Positions 21,015 to 25,145 of a DNA stretch of 64,000 bases are shown one piece after another. A program made the translations under genes and the position numbers. The first letter of the stretch is position 1. Every line of letters begins with the position of its first letter. Where the stretch lies: contig NZ_JAERQG010000002.1 in NCBI RefSeq assembly GCF_016734805.1, forward strand, positions 434,001 to 498,000. The letters run 5' to 3'. This DNA is from Marivirga atlantica. GTDB lineage: Bacteria; Bacteroidota; Bacteroidia; Cytophagales; Cyclobacteriaceae. A model generated the notes under the pieces. The model did not search any database and was not told the origin of the DNA. It saw nothing but the letters and a program-made list of their open reading frames with translations.

Positions 21015-24000
21015 TTAGCCTGGTAATTTAATGTTAAATGTAGTATGCTTGAGATAGGTACTCTCAACCTGAATAGATCCTTTCATCTTTTCAACTGCTA
21101 TTTTTACAAGGTAGAGACCTAGACCGCTACCTTTTGATCTATCCGAAGCACGATAAAACATGTCGAAAATAGCGTCTAACAAATCACTTTTTATACCTAT
21201 GCCATTGTCCTTTATTTTGATGTTTATTTGTCCACCTTCCTTAGAAATGGAGACCTTTATTTGATGAGGCTCTTGTGCATCAGGATTTTTATAGATCAGA
21301 CTATTTTCAATTAGGTTAAATAGAACAGTGTAAAGTAACTGATGATCCGCATAAATAGGCTCATTTACTGTAGAGTTGAAAACGAACTCAGACTCCTCTG
21401 ATGAATATAAATAATTAAGCTTTAATTTTATTTCTTCTATAATTTCTTCTACAAGTAGCGGAACAATTTTAGGATGTTGATTGAATATTTCATGTACCTG
21501 GGTCAATTTGGACAGCAATAGATCCATGTCTTTTGAGGTATGTTCAATCATGTCTAGATACTGTATATTCTTAACAGAAGGCGTTTCAATTTTAGCAAGA
21601 CTAGCCAAGCCTAATATCCTACTTAGTGGTCCTTTTAAATCGTGTGAGGCTTTGTAAATGAATGTGTCGAGCTCTTTGTTAGTTTGCTTTAGTTTTTCCA
21701 GCGTCAACTTAATCTTAGCCGTCCGTTTTTCAACTTTCTTCTCTAGCTGTTTGTTGAGTTCTTCGAGAGTATCGTTAATTTGAAGCACTTCTTCCTGACT
21801 CTCTTCAAGTTCTCGATTTTTTAATTCTATTTGTTCACTTTGAAGTTTTAGCTCCTCAGTTTGCTCGGAGAGCTTCTTGTATTGAAGTTCAATTTCTTTT
21901 TTCTGCGATAATACTTCAAAAGTTCTGTCTGCAACCAATAGTTTCAGGTGTTTTCTATGTTTCCTTAACCTGTAATTATATAGCATCACAATTACCCAGA
22001 TACCTAGGAGACCTGCAACTATAAAGAAAATTTTAGCCCAAGTCGTAAGATACCATGGAGCTTCAATAATAAAAGTATAGGAAGTCGGTTTGCCTTCTGT
22101 TCCATACAAGTTCTTTGACTTAAGTTGGAAAATGTATTTACCGGGAGCGAGGTTGCTGTACTCTTTTTGGGTTCTTCTGTTCCAGTTTGACCAGCTTTCA
22201 TCAACTCCTTTTAAATAGTAGGAATAAGTGTTTTTTTCTTCATAAGTGTAGGCGCTGCTGGAAAATTCGAATTTAATATTATTGTTGGAATAGCTTAAAG
22301 TTGGGATGTAGGCATCGGGTTGATAATCTACAAAAGAGGGTGCACCGGTTTCATTCTCTACACTATAAAATCCATGAAAAATGATCGAATCACCAGTTGA
22401 AACTCTGTTCATGATTGTTTTGAACGGAAGGGTAAAGTCTACATCAATATTTTCATCATATTTATAAAGGCCTTTAGTTCCTGCTATCCATATAACACCA
22501 ACTTCATCAGGGTCAGGATATATGTGATTCACAATTTGATTAGGAAACCGTTGAAGTCCTTGGCTGTCATCCTCATATTTATTAGGTGCAAGGTGTTTTA
22601 GTTTTTTGATCACTTGTTCATTATAGCTGTTGGTAGTAGCGTACCATATGTTTTGTTGGTTGTCTACAGCAGCCTTTAGAATAGGTTTTTTAATATTCAG
22701 ATAAGGAACGGGGATAAAAAAATCTGTTGAGTCTTTATTAGGGTGAGGGTTTAACTGATAGAAGCCTTTAGAAGTGGCAAATACTGCCAAGTTATTTTCA
22801 AGCTTTATAATATCTATTTCGCTTGTCTTTGGGATTCCATGCTTTTCATTAAAGAACTCTAATGTCGCTGTATCTTGTTTTAAATTTATTTTGTAAAGTC
22901 CTTCCCATTTGATGGATAGCCAGGCTGTGGAATCATTTATGTATTTAACGGTATAAGGCGTTCCTATTTTAGTGTTATTTATTAACTTTGTTTTAAGATT
23001 CTTATCCAAGACGTAAACACCATTGTCCTCTGAAGGGATTATGGTTTTACCATTTTCATAAGAGTCTGTAGTCCAGGGATTGTTAATGTCGGTAACCTTT
23101 ACCGCTACTGAATCTTTGATTTGAAATAAACCTTGGTCAGGAGCTGCAGCCAAAAATATTGAGTCTAATACTCCAAGTCCAAAAACTCTTCCCTTTAGGT
23201 TATCAACTTTAACCCATTTATCATTTTTCTTTAGAAACATATCTTCCATACTAGATATATAAGTATTACCATTAGCTTTGATGACGCGGTTAATAAAAAG
23301 AGGGAGATTATTAGACGTATTCCAATGTTGCCATCTAGATATAATTTCACTTATGGCTATACCATTTTGCGTAGATATCCATAAATTATCCTGAGTATCC
23401 TTTGTAATACCGGCAGTAATATTTGAAATTAATCTATTAGATTCATTAAGGAAATAGTAGGTGCTATCTTCTTCAAGTATTAAAACACCTTCTTTTCTAG
23501 TACTAATTGCCAGGGTTGAGTCTATTTGTAATGCATTGTATGGGATGCTTTTCTTTATTTGGTTTCTTAATAACCGGTCTAGAAAAATATTTTTAATAGT
23601 TAATTGGGAGTCATTCAAGACGAATAACTCATAATCTGGATGGGAAAAGAAATATGACTTACCACCAAATGAAAAGGGGACAGCCAATAAGTATTCTGGT
23701 TTGAAAAGAGTGTCTTTTGTAAGTATTAATTTATCATTATATATGTATTTGATAGGTTCATTTACTTCTTTAACATAAATCTTGTTTTCAGAAACAAGAA
23801 TATTCTGATTATGCCTTGAGTAAGACTTTAATTCTTTTAAATTACCTTTATGATATATATAAAGAGCTTCTCTTGATAAAAAAACTATTGAATCATTTAA
23901 ACCTTGAATTCTTCTAATTCGTGTTTCAGCATTTGTCTCAATAAATTGAGTTTTAAGCTGACCTCTTAAGTTTGATTTGAAATAACCAAATGATTTGTTA

Positions 24001-24281
24001 GAAGCGAAATAAATTTGGTTTAAAGAAGTACAGAATAATCCATTAATGACCGAGTTTTGATTTATATTGAATGGTTCATAGTTTTTACCTGATTTCACAA
24101 TCAAACCTTCAATATTGCCTATAAATATTTTACCTGTTGATTCTTGCTGGAGATCAATATTTGATGGGGATAGATTTAATTGATCTGTACTGAGGTTTGT
24201 AGTAAAGGGTGCTTTAAACGACTGACTAAAACAACTGTTAATAATAAATAACGCTATTACTAAAGTTATAAATATCCGCAT
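21015..24281 (-). CDS. Sensor histidine kinase with periplasmic beta-propeller (two-component regulator propeller family)
   Basis: 1088 residues: signal peptide, about 600 residues of Reg_prop-type propeller repeats, a Y_Y_Y domain (about 650-745, SAYTYEEKNTYSYYLKG), one membrane helix (about 750-772), a long coiled coil (about 785-860), then DHp with SHDLKGPLSR (phospho-His near 880) and a HATPase domain (NLIENSLIY, KDNGIGI, GSGLGLYLV). There is no receiver or helix-turn-helix domain, so it is not a hybrid one-component regulator. It ends 41 bases before the ligase gene. The ligand is unknown. Confidence 0.93.
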   Translation of the reverse strand: MRIFITLVIALFIINSCFSQSFKAPFTTNLSTDQLNLSPSNIDLQQESTGKIFIGNIEGLIVKSGKNYEPFNINQNSVINGLFCTSLNQIYFASNKSFGYFKSNLRGQLKTQFIETNAETRIRRIQGLNDSIVFLSREALYIYHKGNLKELKSYSRHNQNILVSENKIYVKEVNEPIKYIYNDKLILTKDTLFKPEYLLAVPFSFGGKSYFFSHPDYELFVLNDSQLTIKNIFLDRLLRNQIKKSIPYNALQIDSTLAISTRKEGVLILEEDSTYYFLNESNRLISNITAGITKDTQDNLWISTQNGIAISEIISRWQHWNTSNNLPLFINRVIKANGNTYISSMEDMFLKKNDKWVKVDNLKGRVFGLGVLDSIFLAAAPDQGLFQIKDSVAVKVTDINNPWTTDSYENGKTIIPSEDNGVYVLDKNLKTKLINNTKIGTPYTVKYINDSTAWLSIKWEGLYKINLKQDTATLEFFNEKHGIPKTSEIDIIKLENNLAVFATSKGFYQLNPHPNKDSTDFFIPVPYLNIKKPILKAAVDNQQNIWYATTNSYNEQVIKKLKHLAPNKYEDDSQGLQRFPNQIVNHIYPDPDEVGVIWIAGTKGLYKYDENIDVDFTLPFKTIMNRVSTGDSIIFHGFYSVENETGAPSFVDYQPDAYIPTLSYSNNNIKFEFSSSAYTYEEKNTYSYYLKGVDESWSNWNRRTQKEYSNLAPGKYIFQLKSKNLYGTEGKPTSYTFIIEAPWYLTTWAKIFFIVAGLLGIWVIVMLYNYRLRKHRKHLKLLVADRTFEVLSQKKEIELQYKKLSEQTEELKLQSEQIELKNRELEESQEEVLQINDTLEELNKQLEKKVEKRTAKIKLTLEKLKQTNKELDTFIYKASHDLKGPLSRILGLASLAKIETPSVKNIQYLDMIEHTSKDMDLLLSKLTQVHEIFNQHPKIVPLLVEEIIEEIKLKLNYLYSSEESEFVFNSTVNEPIYADHQLLYTVLFNLIENSLIYKNPDAQEPHQIKVSISKEGGQINIKIKDNGIGIKSDLLDAIFDMFYRASDRSKGSGLGLYLVKIAVEKMKGSIQVESTYLKHTTFNIKLPG

Positions 24282-24411: not shown

Positions 24412-24439
24412 AAAAAAGAGACCCTAAGATCTCTTTTTT
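24412..24439 (-). terminator. Terminator overlapping the stop codon of the His-rich protein gene
   Basis: Arms AAAAAAGAGA (24412-24421) and TCTCTTTTTT (24430-24439) with an eight-base loop. The TAG stop at 24424-24426 lies in the loop, so transcription ends almost exactly with translation and the two-gene unit upstream is closed off from the kinase gene. Confidence 0.85.
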
Positions 24440-24939
24440 AATGTTTCTAAGTATGTTGGATTATATTTTGAAGGTAACTCTTCATACCATTTAACTACAG
24501 TTTCAGCTCCTAAATTATCATAAATGTAGGCTAGCTGTTTTTGATAGCGATCTTTCCAAGCTTTAATTTCTGCTGTAGGGTTTTCGCTAACTTTTTCCTG
24601 ATAGGCTAATTTAGCCTTTGTAGAGGTTGGCTCATGATGTATGAATTTTCTAAATTTCTCCATACAATATTTATGGTATGACCTAGTATGTAGAATAAAA
24701 TTATGCCACATCTCATCGATGATCGCCAAAGGCTTATCAATCGATAGTGAAAATTTTTCTTCTTCACTAGCTTTTGCAGCTAACCAGAGCCACTTTTTTG
24801 TTTCTTCAAAAATCGCTTCAGCCTCTGCTTCACTAACATTGTACCTGTTCATAAAGCCAGCAATAACATCAGAACTATTATCAAAATCCAAAGCTTCCTC
24901 TAAAGAACAAGTTCTGTTAACGGTTTCTGTTAAAAACAT
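24424..24939 (-). CDS. His-rich protein resembling glycine-rich-domain-containing-protein-like family; partner of a small peptide
   Basis: 171 residues, soluble, no signal peptide or membrane helix. A conserved-looking core holds IIDEMWHNFILHTRSYH (Asp75, His79, His84, His89) and then FIHHEP (His101, His102), a spacing that could bind a metal. This core resembles the N-terminal segment of the glycine-rich-domain-containing-protein-like (GRDP/DUF1399-like) family; the match is from memory and tentative. The gene starts 12 bases after a 41-residue Cys-containing peptide gene and shares its promoter and terminator. No enzymatic activity can be assigned. Confidence 0.7.
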   Translation of the reverse strand: MFLTETVNRTCSLEEALDFDNSSDVIAGFMNRYNVSEAEAEAIFEETKKWLWLAAKASEEEKFSLSIDKPLAIIDEMWHNFILHTRSYHKYCMEKFRKFIHHEPTSTKAKLAYQEKVSENPTAEIKAWKDRYQKQLAYIYDNLGAETVVKWYEELPSKYNPTYLETLKKRS

Positions 24940-24951
24940 AGCTTTAAAGCT

Positions 24952-25077
24952 TTATGCTGTACATACTGGCATACAAACTGGTGCCTGATTTGGCTGTGCT
25001 TTTTTAGTTAATCTGTCGATTAATTCTTCTTTTGAAAGTTTAACCTCTTGTGCTCCCTTTGATGTAATGTTGTTCAT
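24952..25077 (-). CDS. 41-residue Cys-x-x-x-Cys peptide, candidate RiPP-type precursor
   Basis: Found by reading the minus strand upstream of the His-rich gene: ATG at 25077, TAA ending at 24952. It has a polar, helix-prone N-terminal part containing KLSKEELIDRLTKKA and a short C-terminal tail QPNQAPVCMPVCTA with two cysteines spaced four apart and several prolines. That leader-plus-Cys-tail layout is typical of ribosomally made, modified peptides. A full-consensus Bacteroidota promoter lies 38 bases upstream and the next gene starts 12 bases downstream, which argues strongly that the gene is expressed. There is no signal peptide and no recognised modification enzyme or exporter nearby, so a plain small protein is also possible. 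Confidence 0.65.
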   Translation of the reverse strand: MNNITSKGAQEVKLSKEELIDRLTKKAQPNQAPVCMPVCTA

Positions 25078-25114
25078 TTTAAGTTAATTTTATTGGTTTG
25101 TGTTGTTTCGGGTG

Positions 25115-25145
25115 CAAAAGTAGCTATCACTTTTTTAAATACAAA
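25115..25145 (-). promoter_or_regulatory. Promoter of the peptide / His-rich protein operon
   Basis: On the minus strand: TTTG (25145-25142), a 19-base spacer, TACTTTTG (25122-25115). Both elements match the Bacteroidota -33/-7 consensus exactly at the preferred spacing. The predicted start site is about 30 bases before the peptide ATG at 25077. Confidence 0.65.

Follow-up and report, generated by a model that had tools for sequence, protein, structure and literature searches.

In the 64-kb stretch of Marivirga atlantica DNA analysed here (hereafter the window), a gene for a 41-residue peptide with a Cys-bearing tail directly precedes a gene for a 171-residue protein, and this pair is real and conserved. 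The protein counts as a distant member of the GRDP-like (PF07173/DUF1399) group, whose domain occurs from bacteria to plants and giant viruses and is without known activity. That this domain goes together with a Cys-rich tail, either in trans (as a separate peptide) or in cis (as a fusion), is well supported in Bacteroidota and can be observed in some other phyla. Neither gene of the pair is named by any family model.

Both genes lie on the minus strand, 12 nt apart, the peptide gene first and the protein gene second. The features of the operon are:

25145 to 25115, minus strand: promoter-like string TTTG-N19-TACTTTTG, 37 nt before the peptide start codon
25077 to 24952, minus strand: peptide gene, 41 aa, MNNITSKGAQEVKLSKEELIDRLTKKAQPNQAPVCMPVCTA (ORF and translation)
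25006 to 25032, minus strand: leader motif KEELIDRLT (K-x-x-L-I-x-x-L) of the peptide, present in most of the peptides compared
24961 to 24975, minus strand: Cys-x-x-x-Cys tail (C35, C39) of the peptide, read from its sequence; the spacing differs among relatives
24939 to 24424, minus strand: gene for the 171-aa, mainly helical GRDP-like protein (ORF, alignment, model with pLDDT 92.9, fold searches)
24628 to 24717, minus strand: signature D75-x2-W78-H79 ... T85-x2-Y88 ... H102-x-P104 of that protein (alignment of 12 divergent members), a candidate metal site
24439 to 24412, minus strand: intrinsic-terminator-like hairpin (12 pairs and a T-run) overlapping the stop codon of the 171-aa gene

The original prediction had described a 41-codon Cys-tailed gene, a 12-base gap and a 171-residue gene, and the open reading frames confirm all three, with the strand being minus. 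The peptide consists of a leader and a C-terminal C-x3-C, ending in CMPVCTA. A terminator over the stop of the larger gene had also been claimed and is indeed there, the hairpin pattern being found once against 0.5 expected. The claim of a full-consensus promoter stands only in part: the string is present at a suitable distance and is, as we take it, the Bacteroidota-type promoter consensus, but although it is the sole match in the window, 0.83 matches are expected by chance, so it is its position alone that speaks for a promoter. The protein gene is single-copy in the genome. Past the terminator, on the same strand (window 21015-24281), lies a gene for a 1088-aa protein with a sensor-kinase-like C-terminus, as judged by eye, and no tie between it and the pair was found. 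Large sensor proteins cluster near 13 loci of the family and are taken as a common paralogous family; because of the many paralogues, the synteny of the flanking kinase across the family is uninformative.

It could be argued that the peptide is a chance small ORF upstream of an unrelated gene, and some control genes do have such an ORF. A scan of genome contigs gave 38 homologous loci from Bacteroidota, Gammaproteobacteria, Cyanobacteria and Oligoflexales, of which 37 are testable; L039, where fewer than 250 nt separate the gene start from the end of the contig, was dropped from both counts that follow. Under the upstream rule (an ATG ORF of 25-120 aa whose stop lies within 150 nt upstream, with at least 2 Cys in its last 30 residues), 30 of the 37 loci have a Cys-tailed small ORF, compared with 24 of 349 other genes of these loci (Fisher p 2e-23). 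When the leader motif is also demanded, and the peptide is allowed within 250 nt upstream or with its start within 200 nt downstream, the count is 31/37 against 6/345 control genes (p 1e-33). Three of these 31 loci, L020, L027 and L028, owe their place to downstream peptides, starting 20, 174 and 53 nt downstream, which were found after the motif had been written; a narrower control for downstream peptides, with a 150-nt window, gave 1 of at most 300, the matched control being the 6/345 above. Further, in pairs of peptides from related species dN/dS is 0.15-0.60 in nine of ten pairs, two of the ten pairs resting on three changes each and the tenth being saturated, and the peptide genes thus look to be under purifying selection. 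Given also that the pairing recurs as a fusion (see below), we regard chance as refuted for the family as a whole.

The pairing had been predicted to hold across genera, a check set in advance, and it does so in several phyla together with a shared leader motif. It had also been said that homologues without an upstream peptide would count against it; most have one, while beside the protein genes of L012 and L037 no peptide was found, L037 having only about 0.3 kb upstream. The remaining misses are of several kinds. L017, a miss by the 150-nt rule, has its peptide 193 nt upstream. L029 has longer Cys-tailed ORFs of the GG type 244 and 588 nt upstream. L018, L023 and L025 fail the motif test, with a Cys peptide present and the motif absent by the regular expression used; together with L012, L029 and L037 they are the misses of that test. 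In L038 the likely peptide has 64 aa and lies 61 nt upstream, a different small ORF having been taken in the 30/37 count. In a later sample, both new A1-type loci have a peptide with the motif, and one of these peptides duplicates that of L036.

The motif itself, K-x-x-[LIVF]-[ILV]-x-x-[L-type]-[L-type], was written after the peptides had been seen, and it occurs in 29 of 31 peptides across groups; in 500 shuffles of the leaders the mean is 1.83 peptides with the motif and the largest number 8. This set omits L025, L036 and L038 as near-copies, as well as loci for which no peptide was known by then, and some of its peptides were shortened to an inner ATG. The motif is present again in peptides found later, i.e. 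the downstream ones of L020, L027 and L028 and that of L151. In Shewanella and its kin it runs into a GG or GA site, which is not the case in the window's clade, and a reading of the window peptide finds neither GG nor GA before the core. Such sites occur in Gammaproteobacterial, some cyanobacterial and some Flavobacteriales relatives. The cores are variable: the window has C-x3-C, some close relatives have C-x2-C or C-x5-C, the TonB clade has HCSNCGHC and Shewanella a repeated C-x3-C. Hence the expectation of an exactly conserved C-x3-C spacing fails as a universal rule, since related operons have C-x2-C, C-x5-C or multi-Cys tails. What is found is nevertheless the arrangement by which a RiPP precursor is recognised, a shared leader and a variable core beside a conserved partner. 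The peptides of L013 and L029 match the RiPP_CCRG-2 and mersacidin-family models just below the cut-offs. Tandem, similar Cys-rich peptides with GG or GA leaders lie 5' of Shewanella GRDP-like genes (L021:7475-7954, L026:7426-7938, L031:7300-7820).

In a 33-row alignment of the protein F29, D75, M77, W78, F81, Y88, C92, P104 and G144 are invariant, and H79, H101 and H102 are kept at 90% or more; among divergent members D75, W78, H79, T85, Y88, H102 and P104 are identical in 12 of 12 aligned. Its AlphaFold2 model (pLDDT 92.9, pTM 0.88) is mainly helical. In this model D75 and H79 are one turn apart on helix 69-83, while H101 and H102 lie in the loop after helix 85-95, an arrangement that would suit a metal site. 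The pattern D-x3-H-x4-H-x4-H ... HH reported earlier is present in so far as D75-x3-H79 and HH at 101-102 are concerned; as a whole it is loose, and the invariant columns differ from it.

Direct searches place this protein nowhere. Up to an E value of 1, Pfam gives two matches at chance level (E 0.064 and 0.35) and NCBIfam nothing; a direct match to PF07173 is absent both for the window protein (E up to 1) and for 33 A1 members (E up to 0.1), and the 33 A1 proteins scanned have no Pfam or NCBIfam match beyond chance. Among PDB sequences no related chain was found (one match, E 0.34). A fold search of the PDB with the model likewise gave no match (best E 2.7), and an enzymatic precedent is therefore lacking. 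The relationship emerges through intermediates. The A1 profile finds L063, one of the distant members in the window's order, at E 6.3e-9, and L063 in turn matches PF07173 at E 3.1e-5, with 25.1 bits against a cut-off of 22.7, other distant members coming close. In a Foldseek search of BFVD the three best matches are giant-virus proteins (probability 1.00, E 0.004 to 0.04), the best of which (E 4e-3, probability 1.00) is named 'Glycine-rich domain-containing protein-like'. The resemblance to GRDP-like proteins, suggested in the original prediction, is thus real but remote. A PF07173 search across the phylum matches in just 2 of 296 genomes, so Pfam is unusable for counting the group.

The strongest finding of the analysis is that in distant members the tail is usually part of the protein. 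These were collected with the A1 profile in the window's order, except for L070 and L071 (from the PF07173 search) and L072 (from a class-wide search), and the search profile excludes tails. If a tail is defined as at least 3 Cys within the last 30 residues, 22 of the 26 members with a recognisable frame (from 29 loci) carry one fused to their own C-terminus, compared with 2 of 448 other genes of the regions retrieved. The remaining four have a Cys-rich tail in the next gene of at least 100 aa, which is seen in 9/465 control genes; the same rule at 40 aa or more is too loose (77/465 controls), and at 100 aa all four still pass. L064, L065 and L070, with no central frame recognised, were left out of this count, and L041-L043 (A1-type or partial) are outside it. 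The result is repeated in a later sample of 400 genomes from a different order, where 28 genomes gave a match and 26 of these were new: the tail is fused in 21 of 25 recognisable new members, two A1-type members have an upstream peptide, and two, L153 and L154, have neither tail nor peptide by the rules used. From this sample L165 was left out for want of a recognised frame, and L094 and L095 as being L033 and L036 again. Since many of the distant members belong to the same genera, the tail counts are not independent. Split two-gene versions of the fused membrane type also occur (L129:7486-9096, L130:7033-8508, L131:7850-9130), and in these the GRDP-like gene overlaps a second gene, for a protein with a Cys/Gly tail at its C-terminus.

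Plasmid matches carry eleven organism names, of which six were examined. The members of E. coli, Rhizobium and Paenibacillus have fused Cys-rich tails, that of Aureibacter has an upstream peptide, and those of Rhodococcus and Vibrio have no Cys-rich tail and no peptide that we could see. On the E. coli plasmid pEC16II (L103:3605-6830) a GRDP-like protein with the fused tail SVCGCSGKGCGAGCSCNSR is encoded together with an ABC transporter and a JmjC_2 cupin oxygenase, whose genes it precedes. This gene is found in 36 of 5426 genomes at 40 places, all of them on plasmids, which among the 15 places listed are mostly of about 7.9 kb. The gene group on these small mobilisable plasmids is a possible peptide cluster. 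Plasmids pHUSEC41-3 and pEC16II are named in PMC5831011 and PMC9282650, where the available text contains no analysis of the GRDP-like gene.

In a tree of 46 rows the window protein is one of 12 Bacteroidota proteins that together form a starred clade (100/99). Eleven of them are labelled as the bare two-gene form; the twelfth is L012, which belongs to the window's own clade yet has no detectable peptide. One group (99/96) holds the rows with the TonB/ABC label, although L151 and L152 received this label from their peptides alone and the other tree labels rest partly on resemblance. With the exception of the E. coli plasmid form, which stands elsewhere on a long branch, the Gammaproteobacterial rows form one group (12 rows, 100/99). 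The family is patchy: it was found in 2 of 345 genomes of the window's class (E 1e-20), in 1 of 247 of the Shewanella order and in 2 of 246 of the order of L024, each of these three counts including the genome used as centre, further in 4/241 genomes of the window's order (E below 1e-18) and in 4/400 of the order of L036 (E below 1e-50). Among viral contigs 70 stretches fit a pattern and none is a relative, and phage records gave one weak match, in Klebsiella phage 05F01 (E 7e-4).

The genes, their pairing in trans and in cis, the motif, the invariant residues and the exporter context of relatives are all observed; binding, catalysis, a metal, the product and its role belong to the interpretation. 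We propose a split RiPP-like system of minimal size: a Cys-rich tail, supplied in trans or in cis, would be recognised and matured (or loaded with metal) by the GRDP-like domain. We hold this view with belief and doubt in equal measure. The peptide would be the precursor, with a short and probably helical leader (K-x-x-L-I-x-x-L-L) followed by a short Cys-bearing core. Recognition of the leader and action on the Cys residues would fall to the 171-aa domain, which would most likely be a small maturation factor dependent on metal; D75 and H79, on one helix, may form its metal site together with H101/H102 in the loop that follows. In the fused relatives the domain would act on its own Cys-rich tail, in a borosin-like architecture, and being fused to the tail it would not need a separate leader. 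That distant relatives so often own a Cys-rich tail is the reason to suggest that the family works on such tails. The broader idea, that GRDP-like/DUF1399 proteins are a new metal-dependent enzyme class modifying Cys/Gly-rich tails in cis or in trans, with the window operon as its smallest two-gene form, is more tentative, and we are inclined to doubt it somewhat more than to believe it.

The neighbouring genes bear on this proposal in several ways. A large transporter and an HlyD-like gene lie near the pair in L017, L021, L023, L026, L029, L030, L031, L034 and L039, according to blast clustering and reading, the HlyD match having been checked for L021 alone. All six transporters scanned by Pfam (L017, L021, L029, L030, L034, L039) have Peptidase_C39 and ABC domains, while the transporter of L035 is without the C39 domain. 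Eight of ten Gammaproteobacterial loci have a transporter beside them, L020 and L027 being the exceptions. The original note had seen no exporter near the window pair, and this is borne out: there is no C39 on the contig, and no exporter or leader protease of another type was seen by eye among the ORFs at positions 20-30 kb of the window. A Peptidase_C39 search of the window's whole genome has two matches, neither of which lies on the window's contig; one of the two is in a 730-aa frame. Together with the lack of a GG site in the window peptide, the lack of a C39 exporter on the contig counts against a RiPP reading of this operon. In Pseudoalteromonas phenolica, where the C39 exporter is present, genes for a LanC-like protein and for the N-terminal part of a lantibiotic dehydratase (Lant_dehydr_N, cut by the locus end) were also found, at a distance of a few kb from the GRDP-like gene (L039:6467-8572).

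The GG leaders, tandem peptide copies and C39 exporters of Shewanella and Alteromonas relatives would be at home in a bacteriocin system, with the peptide as toxin and the GRDP-like protein as its immunity protein. We consider this very improbable. In the great majority of distant members (the 22 of 26 above) and in the E. coli plasmid form, domain and Cys tail are parts of one protein, and a toxin and its immunity protein are not known to be fused in this way. Moreover, the domain is present twice in each of the Shewanella loci L021, L023 and L026.

The main rival to maturation is escort or metal loading. In that case the GRDP-like protein would be a non-catalytic escort or metal chaperone that either keeps the tail in its reduced state or supplies it with a metal such as Cu, Zn or Fe; the product, peptide or tail, would then bind metal itself. 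Indeed the association of protein and Cys tail fits an escort or metal-holding role equally well, tails such as HCSNCGHC resemble metal ligands, and in the HCSNCGHC clade the loci encode a TonB-dependent receptor and a DUF4374 protein, together with ABC genes. In gut Bacteroides, proteins with DUF4374 bind xenosiderophores, according to the available text of PMC13142918. On the other hand, no metal genes were identified in the Gammaproteobacterial loci or near the window pair, where the ORFs at positions 20-30 kb were inspected by eye, and Ser/Gly/Cys tails of TIGR04222 proteins are discussed as substrates of modification in the accessible part of PMC12452194. In our opinion escort or metal loading is a serious explanation, yet an unlikely one.

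In the loci of the HCSNCGHC type a protein which we call 'MSIFPKR' adjoins the GRDP-like gene (L022, L032, L033, L036, L104, L132). It has about 300 aa and lies between the GRDP-like gene and the TonB receptor:

L032:1519-2427: 'MSIFPKR' protein
L033:8457-9353: 'MSIFPKR' protein
L104:8474-9406: 'MSIFPKR' protein

It has no Pfam match in L032 and L104, which were scanned, and is followed by a TonB-receptor-like gene, identified by Pfam in L032, by annotation in L104 and by clustering or resemblance in the rest. DUF4374 was recognised by Pfam in L022, by annotation in L104 and by clustering in L032, L033 and L036, and ABC genes follow. As a candidate leader-binding RRE the 'MSIFPKR' protein is unsupported, its model (pLDDT 73) resembling complement/alpha-2-macroglobulin-type and RbmA beta domains with poor superposition.

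Like an RRE, the GRDP-like protein could do no more than bind the leader on behalf of a modifying enzyme encoded elsewhere. The leader motif common to the peptides is in keeping with this, and so are the 2OG-type oxygenases beside four members: L014 (two TauD), the E. coli plasmid form (JmjC_2), L128 (TauD) and L105 (2OG-FeII_Oxy_2). However, the fused members have no separate leader to be bound, clustering of neighbours gave no recurring enzyme family apart from transporters, and the model is mainly helical with no winged helix. An MNIO (PF05114) as the common modifier is rejected for the window's genome, which has none; MNIO is absent from 34 of 44 genomes searched, the window's included, and in the other 10 it is encoded either on a different contig or at a distance of 3 Mb (one MNIO search left out the genome of L029). 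The pair thus lacks the enzyme expected of an MNIO-modified RiPP of the bufferin or TIGR04222 type. We therefore judge a mere leader-binding role to be quite improbable. Beside the window pair no transporter, TonB/DUF4374 or 2OG-type oxygenase genes were seen.

Irrespective of whether the protein matures or only escorts its partner, a long-uncharacterised domain gains a concrete partner, Cys-rich tails. In the open-access literature searched, the GRDP-like domain has so far figured mainly in plant papers; AtGRDP2, which combines DUF1399 with a glycine-rich region, is called 'of unknown function' in the available text of PMC4299439. If the domain does modify the tails, it would be a new RiPP enzyme class, and one that would escape searches with family models, given that the 33 proteins scanned have no match above chance level in Pfam or NCBIfam. 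Proteins with Ser/Gly/Cys tails in genomes that lack MNIO enzymes would then find a possible explanation as well. Owing to its small size, the two-gene form lends itself to direct expression and testing.

How does the pair compare with known systems? The Ser/Gly/Cys tails of TIGR04222 proteins are proposed MNIO substrates in the accessible part of PMC12452194, in whose main text, as far as available, GRDP, PF07173 and 'glycine-rich' do not occur. L045 and L048 are similar in that their GRDP-like domain is followed by a TIGR04222-like membrane part and then by a Ser/Gly/Cys tail, their TIGR04222 matches being weak (E 1.7e-4 and 7e-4; 21 and 19 bits against a cut-off of 43). However, their genomes and that of the window are without MNIO, and the window peptide is a free peptide of 41 aa. 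The window protein is no TIGR04222 member: with 171 aa it has no Ser/Gly/Cys tail, is mainly helical and lacks an NCBIfam match.

Double-glycine RiPPs and bacteriocins are close to the relatives from Shewanella, Alteromonas, Teredinibacter and Tolypothrix, which have a GG or GG-like leader, a Cys-rich core and a C39 exporter. They differ from the window peptide, which is without GG, and also from the relatives in that the latter, L039 excepted, show no LanB/LanM, YcaO or radical SAM by eye, part of the neighbours having been scanned. No literature link of the GRDP-like domain to RiPPs or Cys tails was found in open-access sources, which is weak evidence of absence. Borosins, in which a methyltransferase is fused to its own C-terminal core (available text of PMC7878506), share the cis architecture of the E. 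coli plasmid form and of other fused members; the E. coli protein has no methyltransferase domain by Pfam, and the relation is one of architecture only.

Finally, the GRDP proteins (PF07173/DUF1399), known from plants (GRDP1/2) and giant viruses, are connected to the window protein by its top structural match in BFVD and by the signature D-x2-W-H ... Y ... H-x-P, which is presumably present in the plant proteins as well. They differ from it in that the window protein is without a Gly-rich region and has its tail in a gene of its own.
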